A stretch of DNA of 33,849 bases. Source: Deltaproteobacteria bacterium. Its GTDB lineage: Bacteria > Desulfobacterota > DSM-4660 > Desulfatiglandales > HGW-15. The notes below the pieces were generated by a model that did no database searches, was not told the origin of the DNA, and was given only the letters and a program-made list of their open reading frames with translations. Below, one piece after another: positions 1,502 to 30,116 of this stretch (the first letter of the stretch is position 1; each line of letters starts with the position of its first letter). Position numbers and translations under genes: made by a program. The stretch lies in NCBI GenBank assembly GCA_019310525.1, contig JAFDEE010000027.1, forward strand, positions 1 through 33,849, read 5' to 3'.

Positions 1502-2233
1502 ATGGCGGACGAACTGGAGATCCTCAGGCAGAAACTGGCGTCAGCCGAAAGGGTGGCGGTCCTCACGGGCGCCGGTGTTTCTGCAGAAAGCGGGGTGCCC
1601 ACTTTCAGGGGAGAGAACGGCCTCTGGCGTAACCAGGACGTGATGGATTTGGTCACCCCCTCCGGTTTTGCCCGGGATCCCAGGCGGGTATGGGAGTTTT
1701 ACAACTGGCGCCGGAGTCTCATCAACCGCGTTACATTCAATCCCGCCCACGAGGCCCTGGCCGAACTGGAAAGAAGAATCCCCCATTTCACTTTGATCAC
1801 CCAGAACGTCGACGGCCTTCACGTAAGGGCCGGGAGCCGGAATATCCTGGAGATTCACGGGAATCTCTGGAAGGTTCGCTGTACCCGATGCAACAGGGTG
1901 TCTCTTGACGATTCTTCCGATCTGGGGCCCTTGCCGAAATGCCGGGATTGTGGCGGTCTGTTGAGACCCCACGTGGTCTGGTTCGGCGAGTCCCTGGACG
2001 AGGCGCTCCTGCGCCGTGCTATACAAGCCTCAAGAGAGTGCCAGGTAATGCTCGTTGTCGGGACTTCGGCGGTTGTGCAACCGGCCGCTTCCCTCTCCAT
2101 GGAGGCGAAGGCAGGGGGGGCAGTCTTGGCGGAAATCAACATTGAGAAAACACCCCAGTCCGAATTCATGGATTTCGTGTTCACCGGAAAGGCTGGGGAA
2201 CTCCTACCGAAGCTCATCGAGAACTGGCCGTGA
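1502..2233 (+). CDS. cobB: Sirtuin (NAD-dependent protein deacylase, CobB/Sir2 type)
   Basis: Removes acyl groups from lysines using NAD+, giving nicotinamide and O-acyl-ADP-ribose. All hallmark motifs are visible in 243 residues: GAGVSAESGVPTFRG (NAD-binding Rossmann and cofactor loop), TQNVDGLH, EIHGN with the catalytic His, a zinc module CTRC...CRDCGG, RPHVVWFGE and VVGTSAVVQPA. The reading frame is open well upstream, but homology begins near MADELEIL, so I placed the start at the ATG 1502. No clear Shine-Dalgarno precedes it, so the start is less sure than the identity. Its stop overlaps the GTG start of the SAM hydrolase, implying translational coupling. Confidence 0.92.
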   Translation: MADELEILRQKLASAERVAVLTGAGVSAESGVPTFRGENGLWRNQDVMDLVTPSGFARDPRRVWEFYNWRRSLINRVTFNPAHEALAELERRIPHFTLITQNVDGLHVRAGSRNILEIHGNLWKVRCTRCNRVSLDDSSDLGPLPKCRDCGGLLRPHVVWFGESLDEALLRRAIQASRECQVMLVVGTSAVVQPAASLSMEAKAGGAVLAEINIEKTPQSEFMDFVFTGKAGELLPKLIENWP

Positions 2234-3036
2234 AACCCTCTGGAATCATCACCCTCACCACTGATTTCGGCCTGAGCGACCCTTACGTGGCCATGATGAA
2301 GGGAGTGATCCTGTCGGTCAATCCAAGGGCCACGGTCTGCGACATTACCCACCTGGTAAGGCCGGGCTCCATCTTCCAGGCGGCCTCTGTCATTCATGAG
2401 AGTTATCCCTTTTTCCCGGAGGGCACGGTCCACGTTGCCGTCGTGGATCCGGGCGTGGGCGGCGAAAGGCGCCCCTTGGTGATCCAGGCCGCCGGGCAAT
2501 TTTTTGTGGGGCCTGACAACGGCCTTTTCACATCCATCATCCAGGATTGCCCCGACCTGAAGGCCTATCACCTGAAGGAATCACGCTTCTTCCTGCCCCG
2601 CGTCACCAGTACCTTCCACGGGCGCGACATCTTCGCCCCTGTTGCGGCCCATCTCTCCCTCGGGGTTCAACCTGACAGACTGGGCAGCCCCCTCCAGCAA
2701 CCGGTCACCATCCCCCTGCCGCGACCGCGGGAAAGGGATGGGGTATTGTACGGCGAGATCGTCCACGTGGACGGATTCGGCAACTGTATCACCAACATTT
2801 CGGGGGAGGTCCTGGAGGGTTTTCTCGGATCTGCCACTCCACTCATCGAGGTCGGGCACCTGGTCATCGACCGGCTTTCACGGACCTATTCCGAGGCGGA
2901 AGAAGGACAACCACTCGCGCTCGTCAACAGCTCGGACAGGCTCGAAATCGCGGTCAACCTGGGCCGGGCCTCGGAATACCTGGGGGTGGCCCGGGACGAG
3001 ATCATCGGGAGCGTCGTGCAGGTAAAGAGACGCTAG
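2230..3036 (+). CDS. SAM hydrolase (adenosine-forming), DUF62 family
   Basis: Members of this family hydrolyse S-adenosylmethionine to adenosine and methionine; halogenases such as fluorinase share the fold. The 268-aa protein has TTDFGLSDPYV near the N-terminus, DPGVGGERRPLVI, FVGPDNGLFT, STFHGRDIFAPVAAHL and the C-domain signature HVDGFGNCITNI followed by ALVNSSDRLEIAVN. The start is GTG at 2230, overlapping the sirtuin stop by 4 nt (GTGA), so the two are very likely one operon. The TAG stop shares the palindrome CTAG with the stop of the convergent HNH gene. The hydrolase assignment is family knowledge; a halogenase would need the distinctive extra loop of fluorinase, which I do not see. 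Confidence 0.9.
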   Translation: MKPSGIITLTTDFGLSDPYVAMMKGVILSVNPRATVCDITHLVRPGSIFQAASVIHESYPFFPEGTVHVAVVDPGVGGERRPLVIQAAGQFFVGPDNGLFTSIIQDCPDLKAYHLKESRFFLPRVTSTFHGRDIFAPVAAHLSLGVQPDRLGSPLQQPVTIPLPRPRERDGVLYGEIVHVDGFGNCITNISGEVLEGFLGSATPLIEVGHLVIDRLSRTYSEAEEGQPLALVNSSDRLEIAVNLGRASEYLGVARDEIIGSVVQVKRR

Positions 3037-3573: not shown

Positions 3574-4065
3574 ATGGAAGCCGATTACCCTCGACTCATG
3601 GGGTTGGCCCTCGAAGAGGCACGGCAGGGATTCGAGAAAGGGGAAGTGCCGGTTGGGGCACTGATTGTCAGTCCTGAGGGACGGATCCTGTCAAGGGCAC
3701 ATAACCAGCCCATTTCCCTGTGTGACCCTTCGGCCCATGCCGAGATTCTGGCCCTTCGGGAGGCGGGTGCCAGGGTCGGGAATTATCGCTTGACGGGGTT
3801 CACCCTTGTCGTCACCATTGAGCCCTGCCTCATGTGTATGGGGGCGGCCCTCCATGCAAGGTTGGCTAAGGTTGTTTACGGGGCCGGGGATCCGAAGGGG
3901 GGCGCGGCGGGCTCCCTCTATGACGTTTCCCGGGATGAGCGCCTGAACCACCAGATCGAGGTGATTTCGGGGATCCGGGGTGAGGAGTGTGCCCGGCTGA
4001 TCCAGCGTTTTTTTTCTTTCCGCAGGCAAGGAAAGAAGAGCGGAGAGGTACCGAAGTGGTCGTAA
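3574..4065 (+). CDS. tadA: TadA: tRNA-specific adenosine deaminase
   Basis: Converts A34 to inosine in the anticodon of tRNA-Arg(ACG). The 163-aa sequence has the zinc-deaminase signature: HAE at 55-57 (His ligand and catalytic Glu) and PCLMC at 84-88 (two Cys ligands), with the GDPKGGAAGSLYDV region that follows in TadA proteins. The length is typical. The final eight codons, encoding a Lys-rich tail, and the TAA stop lie inside the following tRNA-Ser(CGA) gene (4042-4137), so mature tRNA processing would cut the 3' end of a tadA readthrough mRNA. tadA close to tRNA-Ser and dnaX-ybaB-recR resembles the arrangement in Bacillus. Confidence 0.95.
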   Translation: MEADYPRLMGLALEEARQGFEKGEVPVGALIVSPEGRILSRAHNQPISLCDPSAHAEILALREAGARVGNYRLTGFTLVVTIEPCLMCMGAALHARLAKVVYGAGDPKGGAAGSLYDVSRDERLNHQIEVISGIRGEECARLIQRFFSFRRQGKKSGEVPKWS

Positions 4066-4137
4066 CGGGGTCGACTCGAAATCGACTTGTCCCGTGAAGA
4101 GCGGGGCACGTGGGTTCGAATCCCACCCTCTCCGCCA
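4042..4137 (+). tRNA. tRNA-Ser (anticodon CGA)
   Basis: The acceptor stem GGAGAGG pairs with CCTCTCC (4127-4133), followed by discriminator G and an encoded CCA. The anticodon arm is GTCGA-CTCGAAA-TCGAC, giving anticodon CGA (reads UCG). A long variable arm and the T-loop GGTTCGAATCC are typical of tRNA-Ser. The first 24 nt are also the last 24 nt of tadA. Confidence 0.95.
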
Positions 4138-4752: not shown

Positions 4753-4846
4753 GGAGAGATGTCCGAGCTGGCTGAAGGAGCGCGACTGGAAATCGCGTGT
4801 ACCGCCAAAAGTGGTACCGAGGGTTCGAATCCCTCTCTCTCCGCCA
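4753..4846 (+). tRNA. tRNA-Ser (anticodon GGA)
   Basis: The acceptor stem GGAGAGA pairs with TCTCTCC, with discriminator G and an encoded CCA. The anticodon arm CGCGA-CTGGAAA-TCGCG gives anticodon GGA (reads UCC/UCU). The long variable arm and GGTTCGAATCC T-loop fit tRNA-Ser. It ends 21 nt before the dnaX ATG, so it is probably transcribed with dnaX and cut from that mRNA. Confidence 0.95.
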
Positions 4847-22747: not shown

Positions 22748-23242
22748 TCAGCCGGCCATCCATCCGTAAAGCATGCCGGCGATAGTGGAAAGCATGATAA
22801 TGATGATACAGAAGGTCGCCGTCTTTTTTACACCCAGCACCCCCCCGATCACCAGCATGTTAGGGAGAGAGAGGGCGGGGCCCGCCAGGAGGAGGGCAAG
22901 CGCGGGCCCCTTCCCCATGCCGGCCCCCAGGAGTCCCTGCAAAATGGGGACTTCCGTGAGGGTGGCGAAGTACATGAGGGCCCCTGCAACCGAAGCTAAG
23001 AGATTGGCCCAAAGCGAATTCCCCCCAACGAGTGACTGGATATAATGTTCAGGGATCAGGGCGGGGTGTCCCGGCCGACCCAGCATGAATCCGGCCACCA
23101 GCACACCCGCTCCAAGGAGGGGAAAGATTTGCTTCATGAATCCCCAGGTGACCTGGACCCAGCCAACGCGTTCGTCTTTCCTGAACCAGCCCTTGAGCAT
23201 GAAGGCCAGGATGATCACCACCAGCTTGGTTTTTTCCTTCAT
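22748..23242 (-). CDS. Half-size permease (ArsP/DUF318-like C-terminal half)
   Basis: A 164-aa membrane protein with about four to five helices. Motifs GAGVLVAGFMLG, YFATLTEVPILQGLLGAGMGKGPALALLLAGPALSLPN and GGVLGVKKT match the second half of predicted permeases of the DUF318/ArsP group, which are normally about 300 aa or more. The ATG at 23242 has AGGAGG at slightly long spacing. No remnant of an N-terminal half is visible upstream, so a natural half-size protein that dimerises is more likely than a truncation. It heads the arsenic operon, suggesting export of an arsenic species, which is an inference. Confidence 0.75.
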   Translation of the reverse strand: MKEKTKLVVIILAFMLKGWFRKDERVGWVQVTWGFMKQIFPLLGAGVLVAGFMLGRPGHPALIPEHYIQSLVGGNSLWANLLASVAGALMYFATLTEVPILQGLLGAGMGKGPALALLLAGPALSLPNMLVIGGVLGVKKTATFCIIIIMLSTIAGMLYGWMAG

Positions 23243-23309
23243 TTGGATTGATCTCCTCCTGTGAATCAACCGCTGCCAGGGTTAGGGTAACGTTTGCCAG
23301 GTATCACTG

Positions 23310-24067: not shown

Positions 24068-25540
24068 TCATCCCCCTATCGTCACGGGCATGCCCATCAA
24101 GGGCCAGAGGAACATGACGGCCAGCCCCACGACTATTAAGAGCATGATGCTGGCCGGTATGCCGTAAAGGAAAAACTCGCCCGTTGTAAACTGCTTGGAT
24201 TCGTATGCGATGGCATTCGGGGCCGCTCCCACGAGAAGAAGGAAAGGCATCCCGGCCGCCACTAGAGAGGCGAAAAGTATTACTTCCCCTGCAACCCCGA
24301 GATAGGGTGCGATGACCAAGGCCACGGGAAGTGAAATGGCGATGGCCGCGACGTTCATGATGAAGTTTGTCATCATCATGACGAAAAAGGTGATGCTCAT
24401 GACGAAGATGAACCAGTTGGATTCCTTGAAAATGGTCAGCCAGTTGACGGCCAGCCATTTGGCGGCCCCTGTTTCCCACAGGCAGAAGCCGATACTCATG
24501 GCCCCGGCGAAAAGAAGGATGATGTTCCATGGAATGTCTTCGAGATCATCGATGTCCAGGATTCCCGTAACGAAAAAGAGGATCGTGGAGATCAGTATGA
24601 GGGCTGTTTTATCCACAGGTTTCAGGGCCGGGATAAAGGAGCGCAGGGACATGGTGATGATGCATCCGAAGACGATGATCGCGGCGATCAGTTCCTGCCT
24701 TGTGATGGGGCCCAGGTCCTTGTTCAATTGCCTCGCCCGATTTCTGAGTCCGGGAATGGTCTTTTTTTCGGGCCTCAAGAAGATCATGAAGAAGGCCCAG
24801 AGGGCGAAGGTCATGATCCACCCTATGGGAAACATGTAATACGTGAGCTGGAAAAATGTGATTTCCTTGCCCATGATGTCCTTGAAAAAGCCGAGGGCCA
24901 CGGCCCCGCGGGCGGCACCGAGCAGGGTTACGATGCTCCCGGCCCCCGCCACGTAAGCCATTCCCATGAAGAGCCCCTTGCCGAACTTCGTCCGTTTGTT
25001 CCCTTCCCCGTAAAGAGCATAGATGGAGACCAAGAGGGGGTAGATGGTGGCCGCGACGGCGGTGTGGGCCATGATGTGGGCAAGGGCGGCAGTGACCAGG
25101 AAACAGCCTAGATAGATCATACTGGTCCTCTCACCCACCACCATCAACATCTTGTAAGCAAGCCGGCGGGTCAGCCCTGTTTTTGTGAAGACAAGGCCGA
25201 TCACCATGGAGGCGAAGATGAACATGACGGAAGGGTCCATGAAGTCCTTGAAGGCCGTCTTGGCGGGGCGGATGAGGAACAGGGCCTGCAGAACGCCGAT
25301 GGCGAGGCTTGTAACCCCTATGGGGACCACCTCGAAAACCCACCAGGTTCCGGCCAACAAAAAGACAGCCAGAGCCCCTTTGGCCTCCTTGCTCAAAGGA
25401 AAATGCTTCCCCATTGGATCCACGGCATCAGGCCAGGGCGGGGCCCAGTAAACCACGGCGAACAAAGTTATGCCGATAAATAGAAAGAGAATTTTCCTCC
25501 AGTTCACTCCGGAATTTATCTTGATGTTCTCACTGCTCAT
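24068..25540 (-). CDS. SLC13/DASS-family sodium:anion symporter
   Basis: A 490-aa inner-membrane transporter with about 12 helices. Family traits include the AGTWWVFEVVPIGVTSLAIGVL region, FIFASMVIGLVFTKTGLTRRLA, the TAVAATIYPLL helix, WNIILLFAGAMSIGFCLWETGAAKWLA, TNFIMNVAAIAISLPVAL and a C-terminal GAAPNAIAYESKQFTTGEFFLYG with the SNT-like substrate loop. Members carry dicarboxylates, citrate or sulfate; the substrate cannot be told here. GGAG lies 7 nt before the ATG. It follows the degenerate receiver gene by 116 nt and may be read from the sigma-54 promoter in front of that gene. Confidence 0.9.
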   Translation of the reverse strand: MSSENIKINSGVNWRKILFLFIGITLFAVVYWAPPWPDAVDPMGKHFPLSKEAKGALAVFLLAGTWWVFEVVPIGVTSLAIGVLQALFLIRPAKTAFKDFMDPSVMFIFASMVIGLVFTKTGLTRRLAYKMLMVVGERTSMIYLGCFLVTAALAHIMAHTAVAATIYPLLVSIYALYGEGNKRTKFGKGLFMGMAYVAGAGSIVTLLGAARGAVALGFFKDIMGKEITFFQLTYYMFPIGWIMTFALWAFFMIFLRPEKKTIPGLRNRARQLNKDLGPITRQELIAAIIVFGCIITMSLRSFIPALKPVDKTALILISTILFFVTGILDIDDLEDIPWNIILLFAGAMSIGFCLWETGAAKWLAVNWLTIFKESNWFIFVMSITFFVMMMTNFIMNVAAIAISLPVALVIAPYLGVAGEVILFASLVAAGMPFLLLVGAAPNAIAYESKQFTTGEFFLYGIPASIMLLIVVGLAVMFLWPLMGMPVTIGG

Positions 25541-25656: not shown

Positions 25657-26043
25657 TTATCCGGCCCTCTCTCTGCATGCCCTCCGGACGCTGGCGATCA
25701 ACGCATCCAGTTCGAAGGGAATCAGGAAATCGTCATAAACCCCCAGCCTCATGGCTTCTATGGAAAGATTCATTTTTTGGGGGCTGTTCAGGGTGATGAT
25801 GCGGGTGGTCGGGCTGATCCCCTGGATGATTCTGATAAGGGTCAGGCCTTCCTGCCCAAGTCCCTGAAGCCACAGGATGACCACGTCAAAGTCGCTGTTC
25901 GCAAGCAATTTCATGGCCCCCGATTCCCACTCCGCCTCCACGACCCGGAAGGCCGCCTTGCGTAAGTGCGGCCCGATATGGCACTTGGATTCGATGTTCG
26001 AATTGATGATGAGTACCTTTGGAGTCATGGATGGTCCGATCAT
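25657..26043 (-). CDS. Degenerate response-regulator receiver domain protein
   Basis: A single CheY-like domain of 123 aa from MTPKVLI (ATG 26028), or 128 aa from the upstream ATG at 26043; neither has a good ribosome site. The fold pattern is clear (VLIINSN, FDVVILWLQGLGQEGL, RIITLNSP, MRLGVYDDFLIPFELDALIASVRRA), but the key residues are gone. The acidic pair after strand 1 is NS/NI, the phospho-accepting Asp is Trp53 and the conserved Lys is Ile103. It therefore cannot be phosphorylated in the usual way and probably works as a protein-interaction module. A sigma-54 promoter precedes it. Confidence 0.8.
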   Translation of the reverse strand: MIGPSMTPKVLIINSNIESKCHIGPHLRKAAFRVVEAEWESGAMKLLANSDFDVVILWLQGLGQEGLTLIRIIQGISPTTRIITLNSPQKMNLSIEAMRLGVYDDFLIPFELDALIASVRRACRERAG

Positions 26044-26099
26044 CGGGGAATCTTTAGGGTATCCCGGGCTGTGCCCTCCCTTGACCCCCTTGTATTAAC

Positions 26100-26114
26100 G
26101 CAAAAACCGGACCA
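26100..26114 (-). promoter_or_regulatory. Predicted sigma-54 (-24/-12) promoter
   Basis: The minus-strand TGGTCCGGTTTTTGC matches the consensus with invariant GG and GC exactly 10 nt apart (two deviations, at the CA of TGGCAC). It points at the degenerate receiver gene, with the expected start about 26088. The sigma-54 activator gene lies just upstream. Confidence 0.6.
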
Positions 26115-26123
26115 AATTTCAAA

Positions 26124-26139
26124 TCCTGTTAAAACAGGA
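26124..26139. promoter_or_regulatory. Palindrome TCCTGTT-AA-AACAGGA upstream of the sigma-54 promoter
   Basis: Perfect 7-bp arms lie ~10 nt upstream of the -24 box. It could be a regulator site or the end of the preceding transcript. Confidence 0.4.
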
Positions 26140-26171
26140 GGTTGTGGGCAAAATATCAGAAGCGACGGGAA

Positions 26172-26194
26172 ATTTGTTTCTAAATGAAACAAAT
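26172..26194. promoter_or_regulatory. Palindrome ATTTGTTTC-N5-GAAACAAAT, candidate enhancer site
   Basis: Perfect 9-bp arms are centred about 95 nt upstream of the predicted sigma-54 start, the distance at which enhancer-binding proteins usually sit. Confidence 0.5.
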
Positions 26195-26256
26195 CGAAAC
26201 ACAAGGGTTGCAGGGTGAAACACCTTGCTCTGCTGCGGATTCCGGGGAAGATAGCC

Positions 26257-26601
26257 CTAGCCGGGAGGATGCAGGATGTCGCCGCTTTTCAGCCTGCCGC
26301 GGCAGTAACGTTTCAGAACCTCCCGGCTGGGGCCGATCACGTTGTCCAGGACCTGGACCTTTTTCCAGATCAGATAATCGTAATATTCTTCCTCAATGCC
26401 GCCGCAGATCACGGTGTCCACACCCTCGGTCATGATCAGGTGACAGAGTTCTTCCGAAGAAGGATGGGGCAGGATCAATATCCTTTCTTCCGGATTCCTT
26501 GTCCCCTTTCCCCGTTTGACTACGAGAACTTCGGTCGCCAGGTCGAAGCGGGGGGCCACATCATTTTCGTGAAGGGGTATGAGGATTTTCTTCGGCATCA
26601 T
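26257..26601 (-). CDS. NifX/NifB-like (dinitrogenase cofactor biosynthesis) domain protein
   Basis: A 114-aa single-domain protein of the NifX/NafY/NifB-C family: KKILIPLHENDVAPRFDLATEVLVV at the N-terminus (in the family pattern 'iA.p...g.v..hFg.a'), a turn with SSEELCHLIMTEGVDTVICGGI, and a long amphipathic end. Orthologues outside nif clusters bind iron-sulfur clusters or act as small regulators; no nif genes are here. The start ATG overlaps the stop of the sigma-54 activator (ATGA), so they are coupled. A role as a partner or sensor for that activator is an inference from position. Confidence 0.75.
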   Translation of the reverse strand: MMPKKILIPLHENDVAPRFDLATEVLVVKRGKGTRNPEERILILPHPSSEELCHLIMTEGVDTVICGGIEEEYYDYLIWKKVQVLDNVIGPSREVLKRYCRGRLKSGDILHPPG

Positions 26602-28049
26602 CCGTCCAATCCATGGGCCTTGATTTTTCTCCAAAGGGTGCTTCGGCCCCAACCCAGCATGCGTGCCGCACGGGTCCGATTTCCCTGGGCCTTCAAGAGG
26701 GCGTCGGCGATCAACCTTCTCTCCATGTCCCGCCATGTCCCGACAGGTGCAGTGGGGATTTCTTCCCCGGGTTTTGTGTCTTCAAAAGTCTTTTTCTCCT
26801 CAGTATCAGTAGGAGAGAAGGATTGGGGTTCGGTGAGATAGGCTGGTAGATGTCTTGGGTAGATCAAGCCCTCCCGACAGATATTGACGGCATATTCCAC
26901 GATGTTTTTGAGTTCCCTTACGTTCCCGGGATAGGGGTACCGGGTCAGGAGGTTGAGGGATCGGGCCGAAAACCCCCGAATGCGGCTGTTGAACTTGGTG
27001 GTAAAGGTGTCAAGAAAATGCTCCAGGAGCAGGCGGATGTCGCCCTGGCGTTCACGAAGGGGAGGAATCCGGAGGCGAAGAACGTTCAGCCGGAAAAAGA
27101 GATCCTCCCGGAAAAGGCCCTTTTGTACCATGTCCTTGAGATCCCGGTGGGTTGCCGCGATGATTCTGACATCGGCCACAAAGGCCTTTGTACTTCCCAG
27201 GGGAAAAACGGTCCGGTCATCCAGAAAGGTGAGGAGCTTTACCTGGAGGGGCAGGGGCAGGTCGCCGATCTCCGTGAGATAGAGTGTCCCATGGTGGGCC
27301 AAGTGGAACCGCCCGATTTTGTCCTTTACGGCTCCGGTAAAGGCCCCTTTCTTGTGCCCGAAGAGTTCGGATTCGAGGAGGGTTTCAGGCAGGGCCCCAC
27401 AGTTGACCTTGACGAAGGGTCCTTTGGCCCGGCTGGAGGCCTGGTGGATGGCCTCCGCCAGCAAGTCTTTCCCCGTACCGGTTTCCCCTGTAAGGAGTAC
27501 GGAAGAATCGCTCTGGGCGATGACCGGGAGGATCTGGAAGAGTTTTTCCATCTGAGGGCTCTTCCCGATAATATTTTTGAATTGATACGCACTGCTGAGT
27601 GTTTCGTCGAGCTCCTTCAGGGGTCGGAGATCTTCCACGGTTTCGATATAACAAGACGGTGTTTTCCTGTTATTATAAACCGGGCCAAGCGTGATTCGGA
27701 CGGGGACGCGTTTGCGGTCTCTGTTGAGGAGGTCGCTTTCCATGCACAGGGATTCGGTGTTTGTCCTCAGCCCTGAGATAGGACAAGCTTCAAAACAGAT
27801 TCTGCTTCGAATCACCTGGTGGCAAGGCAGTTCCCTGGCCTCATCAAGGCTCAACCCGACGATGCCTTCCATGATATGGTTCATGAACATCAGACGACCC
27901 TGAGAATCGATCAGTGCGATTCCCAGAGGGATCTCGTTCAGAAGCCTGAAAAGATCGATAGTGAGTGGGGGGAAATCCTTTTGGACACGGGATCTCCTGC
28001 GAGGCGCTTTTCCCTTTTGGGCAGGTTGGATGGCCTTGTTTTTTGGCAA
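26598..28049 (-). CDS. Sigma-54-dependent transcriptional activator (PAS-AAA-HTH)
   Basis: A 483-aa enhancer-binding protein. The PAS domain (about 33-145) has a Cys trio C76, C85, C89 (CHQVIRSRICFEACP), a pattern seen in redox- or Fe-S-linked PAS sensors. The AAA+ domain (about 155-390) has Walker A GETGTGKD (188-195), intact GAFTGA sigma-54 loop (235-240) and arginine finger FREDLFFRLNVLRLRIPPLRER. The Walker B is unusual, GTLYLTEIGD, with Thr259 where Asp is expected. A Fis-type HTH ends the protein (AQGNRTRAARMLGWGRSTLWRKI). The start is TTG at 28049 with GGAG 7 nt upstream. Confidence 0.92.
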   Translation of the reverse strand: MPKNKAIQPAQKGKAPRRRSRVQKDFPPLTIDLFRLLNEIPLGIALIDSQGRLMFMNHIMEGIVGLSLDEARELPCHQVIRSRICFEACPISGLRTNTESLCMESDLLNRDRKRVPVRITLGPVYNNRKTPSCYIETVEDLRPLKELDETLSSAYQFKNIIGKSPQMEKLFQILPVIAQSDSSVLLTGETGTGKDLLAEAIHQASSRAKGPFVKVNCGALPETLLESELFGHKKGAFTGAVKDKIGRFHLAHHGTLYLTEIGDLPLPLQVKLLTFLDDRTVFPLGSTKAFVADVRIIAATHRDLKDMVQKGLFREDLFFRLNVLRLRIPPLRERQGDIRLLLEHFLDTFTTKFNSRIRGFSARSLNLLTRYPYPGNVRELKNIVEYAVNICREGLIYPRHLPAYLTEPQSFSPTDTEEKKTFEDTKPGEEIPTAPVGTWRDMERRLIADALLKAQGNRTRAARMLGWGRSTLWRKIKAHGLDG

Positions 28050-28290: not shown

Positions 28291-29673
28291 TTATTGACCC
28301 GACCCGAGGGCCTTTTCCAGGGGAATCTCGGAAAATATTTCCAGAAATACGTCGGCGCATTCGGGGCAAAGCTGGGTGCCCCGGACATCGCGGATGATTT
28401 CCAGGGCCTTTTCGTGCTCCATTCCCTTCCGGTAAGGGCGGTCACTCGTCAAGGCGTGGTAGGTGTCCGCAACGGCCGTCATTCGCGCCCAAAGGGGGAT
28501 TTTTTCGCCCTTGAGCCCATGGGGATATCCTTTGCCGTCGAATCTCTCGTGATGGTGAAGGATGACGGGAATAAGAGGGCGGATACTTGGAATGGGACCC
28601 AGGATATTGGCTCCTACCACGGGGTGTTCCCGGATGACCGCGAATTCTTCCCTGGTGAGGGGCCCGGGCTTAAGTAATATGCCGTCGGGGACACCGATTT
28701 TTCCCAGGTCGTGAAGCCTACCCCCAATGACCAGTGACTCCTTGTCCTCGGAAGAGAGTTGCATCCGGGAGGCCATCTCCGCGACGATCATGGAGACGGC
28801 CTCGGAATGGCCGCGGGTATACTGGTCCCTGGCCTCCAGGGCGGCGATGAGGCTGGTGATGCTCGCGATCATGAGCCTGCGCTCGGTGTCGAGCCTTTCC
28901 TTTTCCTTGAGGAGAAGGCGGAAGTGGTCCGACAAGAGCTTTTCAACGGTGATGACGAGCTGATCCAGATTGAAGGGTTTGACCAGGTAAGCGCTGGCTC
29001 CCCACTGGAGCATCCGCCGCATGATGGCCCTTTCAGCATTGGCGCTCATGATCACGAAGGGTATCCCAGCCAAAGCGGGGTCGGCATGGAGGGCCTTGCA
29101 CAGCTCGACACCGTTCATGCGAGGCATGTCGATATCACTGAGGATCAGGTCCGGCGGGGTGATTTTCACGATCTCAAGGGCCTGAAGACCGTCTTCAGCG
29201 GTCTGGACCATAAATCCGGCATTTTCAAGCCCTTTTTTTACAAGGGAGCGAATGGTGCCTGAATCGTCGACGACCAGAATTCTCCGATCATGATGGAAGC
29301 TGGCCTTCTCAAGAACCCTGCGGATGGTCTCATGGAGTTGTTCCTTGGCCTCCGATTTGGATACATAGGCCGAGGCCCCCGCCCTGAATCCCCTCTCGAT
29401 ATCCCGGTCGCTGTCAAGGGAACTCAACAGGATGACCGGGAGCCCTCTCGTAGCAGAGTTGCTTTTAAGGGATTCGCAAAGCGCAAATCCATCCATGTGT
29501 GGCATCTCGACATCGGATATAACGAGATCGAAGGGCTGGGAAAGGGCGGCCTCGAGTCCCTGGCGGCCGTCTTCGGCCTGGGTCACCTGCGCGCCGAACT
29601 CTTCCAGTTGTTTCGTCAGAATACGGCGGATGATGGAACTGTCGTCTACGATGAGAACCTTTGGAGAATTCAT
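28291..29673 (-). CDS. Tandem-receiver HD-GYP response regulator (c-di-GMP phosphodiesterase)
   Basis: A 460-aa cytosolic regulator. Receiver 1 (about 5-122) has D54 and K106; receiver 2 (about 131-250) has D180 and K232, so both look able to accept phosphate. A short coiled linker (LLLKEKERLDTERRLMIASI) leads to the HD-GYP domain with HD at 321-322, HDLGKIGVPDGIL, and HHHERFDGKGYP (373-384), all needed for c-di-GMP hydrolysis. The ATG at 29673 starts the receiver fold; an in-frame TTG 21 nt upstream is less likely. No histidine kinase is nearby, so its partner is elsewhere. Confidence 0.94.
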   Translation of the reverse strand: MNSPKVLIVDDSSIIRRILTKQLEEFGAQVTQAEDGRQGLEAALSQPFDLVISDVEMPHMDGFALCESLKSNSATRGLPVILLSSLDSDRDIERGFRAGASAYVSKSEAKEQLHETIRRVLEKASFHHDRRILVVDDSGTIRSLVKKGLENAGFMVQTAEDGLQALEIVKITPPDLILSDIDMPRMNGVELCKALHADPALAGIPFVIMSANAERAIMRRMLQWGASAYLVKPFNLDQLVITVEKLLSDHFRLLLKEKERLDTERRLMIASITSLIAALEARDQYTRGHSEAVSMIVAEMASRMQLSSEDKESLVIGGRLHDLGKIGVPDGILLKPGPLTREEFAVIREHPVVGANILGPIPSIRPLIPVILHHHERFDGKGYPHGLKGEKIPLWARMTAVADTYHALTSDRPYRKGMEHEKALEIIRDVRGTQLCPECADVFLEIFSEIPLEKALGSGQ

Positions 29674-30116
29674 CCCGCAACCCCCGGGACCCAAGGGTGT
29701 ATCGAATTTAAAAGAGCCCCCGGGCCATTAGGTCCCGGGAGAAAAGATCGGATCCTGCTCCAGGCGGAGATGTCCCCTGTTCGCCAAAACCGGGAAAAGC
29801 GCGTAAAAGGTGCAGACGGGTCTTTCATGGCGATGCAGGAAACAAGGCTCTTCCCCGCCCTTTGTTTTCATCGACCGGGACGGGGTATTTCTTTAGTGAT
29901 CATCCATAAATGGCCTTTTCCCCCAATCTTTGGGCCCGGCTGGACGTCCTATGCAGACAAGTCCGGCTCAAACCGGGGTTGTTTTTTGGGGCGCCATTCA
30001 CTATTTTATGCCCACGGTTTCCGGGGGGATCTGAAAATTTTTTGGAATATGAAAGGACGGAAGCCAAAGGACAAAAAAGAGGAGGAGATCTTGAGGGAGG
30101 CAAGGAGTGCACGGAG
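29674..30116. other. 443-bp divergent intergenic region between the HD-GYP gene and ftsY
   Basis: I see no gene here; the frames open across it lack ribosome sites and family features. It holds a GC palindrome (CCCGGG-CC-ATTA-GG-CCCGGG type, 29723-29743) and, near 29979-30006, a weak TTGTTT/TATTTT pair that could start ftsY transcription. Confidence 0.4.

Follow-up and report, generated by a model that had tools for sequence, protein, structure and literature searches.

A predicted sigma-54-dependent regulatory region, conserved in type across the phylum, ahead of pseudo-receiver and transporter genes in a deltaproteobacterial genome

The question raised by this locus is what controls a pseudo-receiver gene and a transporter gene located behind a short intergenic gap, downstream of a gene for a transcriptional activator. 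In the window, as the whole 33,849-nt stretch of DNA analysed is called here, this AT-rich gap covers 213 nt (26044-26256) and separates the gene of a small NifX-like protein (26257-26598, probable start near 26598) from the pseudo-receiver gene (25657-26043), which is followed by a DASS/SLC13 transporter gene (24068-25540). The activator gene (26598-28049, start codon approximate) and the NifX-like gene conserved beside it are located upstream of the gap, on the same, minus strand. The pseudo-receiver and transporter reading frames are both open, and no terminator-like site was listed on the minus strand of the interval between them. With good confidence, the gap can be regarded as the putative regulatory region of a sigma-54-dependent unit consisting of the pseudo-receiver and transporter genes. 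Outside this unit, a gene encoding two receivers and an HD_5 domain (PF13487) was found upstream of the activator (28291-29694, minus strand), while for an ORF at 22748-23269 (minus strand), possibly a fragment, the match to the ArsP_1 permease profile is confined to the C-terminal half of the profile.

The predicted activator combines a PAS domain, an AAA+ sigma-54 interaction domain with a GAFTGA motif and a Fis-type HTH, as is characteristic of bacterial enhancer-binding proteins. By our count, 28 of 36 activators have the full PAS motif C-x8-C-x3-C, whose three conserved cysteines could perhaps belong to a metal- or redox-responsive sensor. The HTH helix LGWGRSTLWRK, or a near variant, is almost invariant in the 35 of 36 activators alignable there, which is consistent with a site common to the relatives. 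The neighbouring small protein scored 24.8 bits against Nitro_FeMo-Co, just below the Pfam cut-off of 26.3, and is therefore named NifX-like only.

The gene directly behind the gap had been annotated initially as receiver-like. This stands as far as the domain is concerned, since the protein matches PF00072 with 35.3 bits (cut-off 30.2), but the catalytic positions D, D, D, T and K are occupied by N, S, W, N and I. As the phosphorylated Asp (here W) and the Lys (here I) are both missing, an ordinary phospho-receiver could be ruled out and the protein was assigned as a pseudo-receiver. Scoring of 68 receivers showed Asp and Lys to be retained together in 54 and not in the other 14, namely the window protein and 13 proteins of relatives; among these 13, the Asp is kept in three (L116, L128 and L131) and the Lys in none. 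Such pseudo-receivers recur at this locus position in relatives. Matches in the family outside the window's locus were weak, with listed identities of 21-36%, and included no clear orthologues.

The transporter was assigned to the DASS/SLC13 family based on its scores against Na_sulph_symp (152.5 bits) and VcINDY (E=3.4e-22), the latter match covering residues 58-479 and thus most of its length. Two SNT substrate motifs are characteristic of DASS/SLC13 transporters; both of those in VcINDY are replaced in the window protein, where the aligned residues are AHT and MNV. Its nearest counterparts seen are 75% (L160) and 74% (L161) identical, and the identities of 64-77% recorded for L104-L121 were obtained partly against a second DASS query. 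The host genome (3.78 Mb, 158 contigs) encodes sigma-54 (rpoN) and a DsrA above the curated cut-off, so that the host probably reduces sulfate or sulfite. In a Dsr-bearing genome, sulfate is a natural guess for the substrate.

A -24/-12 box, TGGTCCGGTTTTTGCG, is located in the gap at 26114-26099 on the minus strand. Its GG (26113-26112) and GC (26101-26100) are separated by ten nucleotides, which confirms the box of correct spacing that had been proposed between the activator unit and the receiver gene. Transcription is predicted to start at about 26088, which leaves 45 nt to the ATG at 26043. Box-grade matches (TGGCAC-N5-TTGCW, 3 mismatches) are not enriched over the whole window, with 109 found and 115.5 expected, and the box alone is therefore not significant at that scale; a box this good in the operon direction within the 213-nt gap has P=0.009 (2000 dinucleotide shuffles). 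Its score of 14.3, in a scheme of our own based on consensus weights, is lower than that of the relatives' boxes. The sequence reads TGGTCC where the consensus has TGGCAC, with TC at positions 4-5 where all 17 non-redundant relative boxes carry CA, a contrast that is partly built in because the relative boxes were picked by score and the CA column is thereby inflated. No Rfam family reached its gathering score in the gap, and a structured RNA was rejected there; the window carries only two tRNA genes elsewhere, at 4042-4134 and 4753-4843 on the plus strand.

Two perfect palindromes about 43 and 95 nt upstream of the expected start had also been reported, and both proved exact. The first, TCCTGTT-AA-AACAGGA on the plus strand (26124-26139), has 7-bp arms and is centred at -43.5; the second, ATTTGTTTC-N5-GAAACAAAT (26172-26194), has 9-bp arms and is centred at -95.0. 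In 2000 dinucleotide shuffles of the gap, arms of at least 9 bp occurred with P=0.015, arms of at least 7 bp with P=0.18 and two palindromes with arms of at least 7 bp with P=0.021. A direct repeat missed in the initial annotation, GTTTCGATTTGTTTC (26200-26186, 10-bp spacing), is rarer, as GTTTC-N5-GTTTC in the gap has P=0.001 in the same number of shuffles. Altogether GTTTC is found at 26221-26217, 26200-26196 and 26190-26186 and in inverted form (GAAAC) at 26180-26176, successive elements being 21, 10 and 10 bp apart. The last two of them make up the palindrome at 26172-26194, which is best read as one part of a putative direct-repeat activator site of GTTTC (26176-26221, minus strand). The palindrome at 26124-26139 is not conserved in relatives and is within chance, so it was dismissed as a conserved operator; it overlaps the position of an IHF-like element in some relatives.

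For comparison, matches to the activator were sought in the order (85 genomes; the class comprises the same 85) and in the phylum (395 genomes), where 32 genomes gave matches with E up to 1e-125. Family and order searches returned no genome of the same genus, and the comparison thus covers more distant relatives. A contig scan with the activator yielded L041 as the only close relative, and together with 34 other stretches it forms the comparison set (n=35). The common plan of these loci consists of the activator, the NifX-like protein, a Cache-type histidine kinase, a receiver and a small kinase-like protein, then the gap, and behind it a pseudo-receiver, a receiver, a CBS-pair protein and a DASS transporter; individual loci deviate from it. 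By our count, 23 of the 35 have a kinase gene immediately behind the NifX-like gene. Past the gap, a DASS gene was located in 12 of the 35, a number that rises to 14 after extension of L110 and L109 (L160 and L161). The window represents a reduced locus that lacks genes for the histidine kinase and the CBS protein. A search of the interval between receiver and transporter genes for a remnant of the CBS gene gave no credible match. Four further loci (L111, L113, L114 and L117) also lack the kinase after the NifX-like gene, yet have strong boxes. In L130, the activator orthologue carries an in-frame stop and GAFAGA, and the kinase match is a fragment.

It is this comparison, rather than the box alone, that makes the box convincing. 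Over the 209.7 kb analysed behind the 35 activators, the operon strand carries a box scoring at least 15.3 at 20 sites, which belong to 19 loci, and the opposite strand at one. Fifteen of the 35 relatives have a pseudo-receiver (13 scored by residues, L160 and L161 assigned by similarity and place), and in 13 of these 15 a box of at least 14.5 is located within 750 nt upstream of it, compared with 5.4% of 683 control stretches and none of 16 antisense stretches. The two exceptions are L108, which has no box, and L131, with a weak one (13.2). A box of at least 14.5 is also present in each of the 14 relatives in which a DASS gene was detected behind the gap. The promoter would have been called into question had relatives with this gene content lost the GG/GC pair, and this is not the pattern observed.

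The motif counts were made on 20 of the 35 relative promoters, and the column profile on 17 after removal of three near-duplicates; the strand contrast and the control stretches given above serve as checks on the selection of boxes by score. L127 was left out because its box is located away from the expected gap, and the other 14 because their stretch contained no strong box or the contig or stretch ended before the gap (the box of L109 was found later). Upstream of the 20 boxes, 50 GTNTCA half-sites were counted versus a mean of 5.75 in shuffles, distributed over 19 promoters. Directly oriented pairs 10 bp apart numbered 22 versus 0.04, and with an alternative spelling of the pattern on a single strand, pairs were present in 15 of the 20. 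Half-sites are few or missing in the stretch tested of some relatives (none in L104, one in L111). An IHF-like pattern occurs in six of the 20 promoters versus 0.69 in shuffles, and was not seen in the window. At the level of sequence, the predicted box, the GTTTC repeats, the adjoining activator and the gene types thus form a set that is conserved across the phylum.

In the host genome itself, GTNTC-N5-GTNTC-N50..80-GG-N10-GC gave 26 matches versus 10 in a reversed control, the context being studied for the window match only. The best own-genome match to the kinase is 45% identical and is located on contig C59, where a separate receiver, activator and transporters accompany it; the set on C34 is similar. 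Both clusters (L158, C59:8000-20000; L159, C34:1-11000) encode kinase, receivers, activator and DASS-type transporters and look like paralogs of the window system. Good -24/-12 boxes, CGGCATGGTCCTTGCT and CGGCACACCCCTTGCT, are present in them.

The initial annotation had suggested that the adjacent PAS activator drives the receiver-like gene and perhaps the SLC13 transporter, and the conservation of box, half-sites and HTH supports this. The activator, sensing through its PAS domain, would assemble 66-107 nt upstream of the box, at the GTTTC repeats; the DNA would bend, possibly through IHF, and the AAA+ ring would open the sigma-54 polymerase complex for a start near 26088. The transcript would yield the pseudo-receiver and, by read-through, the transporter. 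Because the pseudo-receiver lacks the phosphorylation residues, the signal is probably its amount, as set by the promoter. More tentatively, and with the odds rather against it, a phylum-wide module can be pictured in which a sensor activator sets, via sigma-54, the dose of a phosphorylation-dead receiver acting by binding, with the activator, the NifX-like protein and the transporter as conceivable partners; in reduced loci such as the window, dose control would then have taken the place of the two-component relay.

Three other explanations can be set against control by the adjacent activator. A chance coincidence of a GG-N10-GC match with palindromes in an AT-rich gap would agree with the shuffle-level frequency of boxes across the window and with the unremarkable 7-bp palindrome, but position and motif are conserved in relatives, and the difference between the pseudo-receiver loci and the control stretches strongly disfavours this reading, which is very improbable. 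The box could also be real and be used by another activator of the host, which has about 30 activator-like genes: the activator has 32 matches in its own genome, 30 of them covering the AAA+ part, and the C59 and C34 clusters, whose kinase, receiver and DASS genes are similar, look like sigma-54 paralogs of the system. Against this, activator, half-sites and box co-occur across the phylum, and use by another activator is considered unlikely.

About equally unlikely is that the promoter is a decaying relic, weak or dead, and that the genes are read from elsewhere. On this view, the window would have shed the ancestral kinase, receiver and CBS genes; its box contains the non-consensus bases mentioned above, and in L108, from the same order, the box and the greater part of the kinase are gone. 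The window, however, retains the GG, the TTTGC and the GTTTC direct repeats as well as both open frames, and the four other kinase-less loci with strong boxes indicate that reduction does not imply decay. L108 itself (1666-3019 relative to the activator match) shows a truncated kinase and a short pseudo-receiver, and is possibly a decaying locus.

The same logic as applied here, in which sigma-54 regulons are reconstructed from activator and promoter neighbourhoods, is described for Desulfovibrio vulgaris in PMC4641369. There, DVU0569/DVU0571 and DVU2956/DVU2957-DVU2964 resemble the window in having a one-component activator beside the conserved -24/-12 promoter of its target, and for DVU0569 the promoter is likewise downstream of the regulator gene. 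That study covers Desulfovibrionales, and DVU2956, unlike the window activator, has no N-terminal sensor domain; DVU2960, in the neighbouring operon, has GAFPGA, and the same text reports that no binding was seen for it. CmrT of CmrRST is comparable to the window protein as a receiver-like protein without catalytic residues encoded with signalling genes (PMC12632262). It differs in being an OmpR-family regulator (PMC12548384), while the window's pseudo-receiver consists of a receiver-like domain on its own, encoded at the head of a transporter unit. The pseudo-receiver models given in PMC12632262, where pseudo-receiver control is called a mystery, are partner binding and expression level; the latter fits here, since the pseudo-receiver gene is headed by its own putative regulated promoter.

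Searches of an open-literature collection brought up nothing that describes this combination of genes or this kind of site, and regulator terms gave no match within PMC5840216. The locus would add a further sigma-54 promoter case with an uncommon cargo. For an activator family of sulfate reducers and their relatives that is so far uncharacterised, the analysis provides a predicted target, a candidate motif for binding and the surrounding gene context, as well as a link to a DASS transporter. The conserved stand-alone pseudo-receivers, in reduced and full-length versions of the locus, provide material for asking how pseudo-receivers are controlled.

Two of the relative stretches carry additional features. 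In the genome of L109, a second pseudo-receiver-like gene is located with a receiver at 9497-10826 of L161 (reversed), where a separate box, TGGAACACTCTTTGCT, and three half-sites accompany it. In L163 (reversed), inspection by eye suggested that from about 3516 the unit continues into apparent membrane cytochrome and multihaem genes in place of the transporter, so that the cargo of these promoters may vary.
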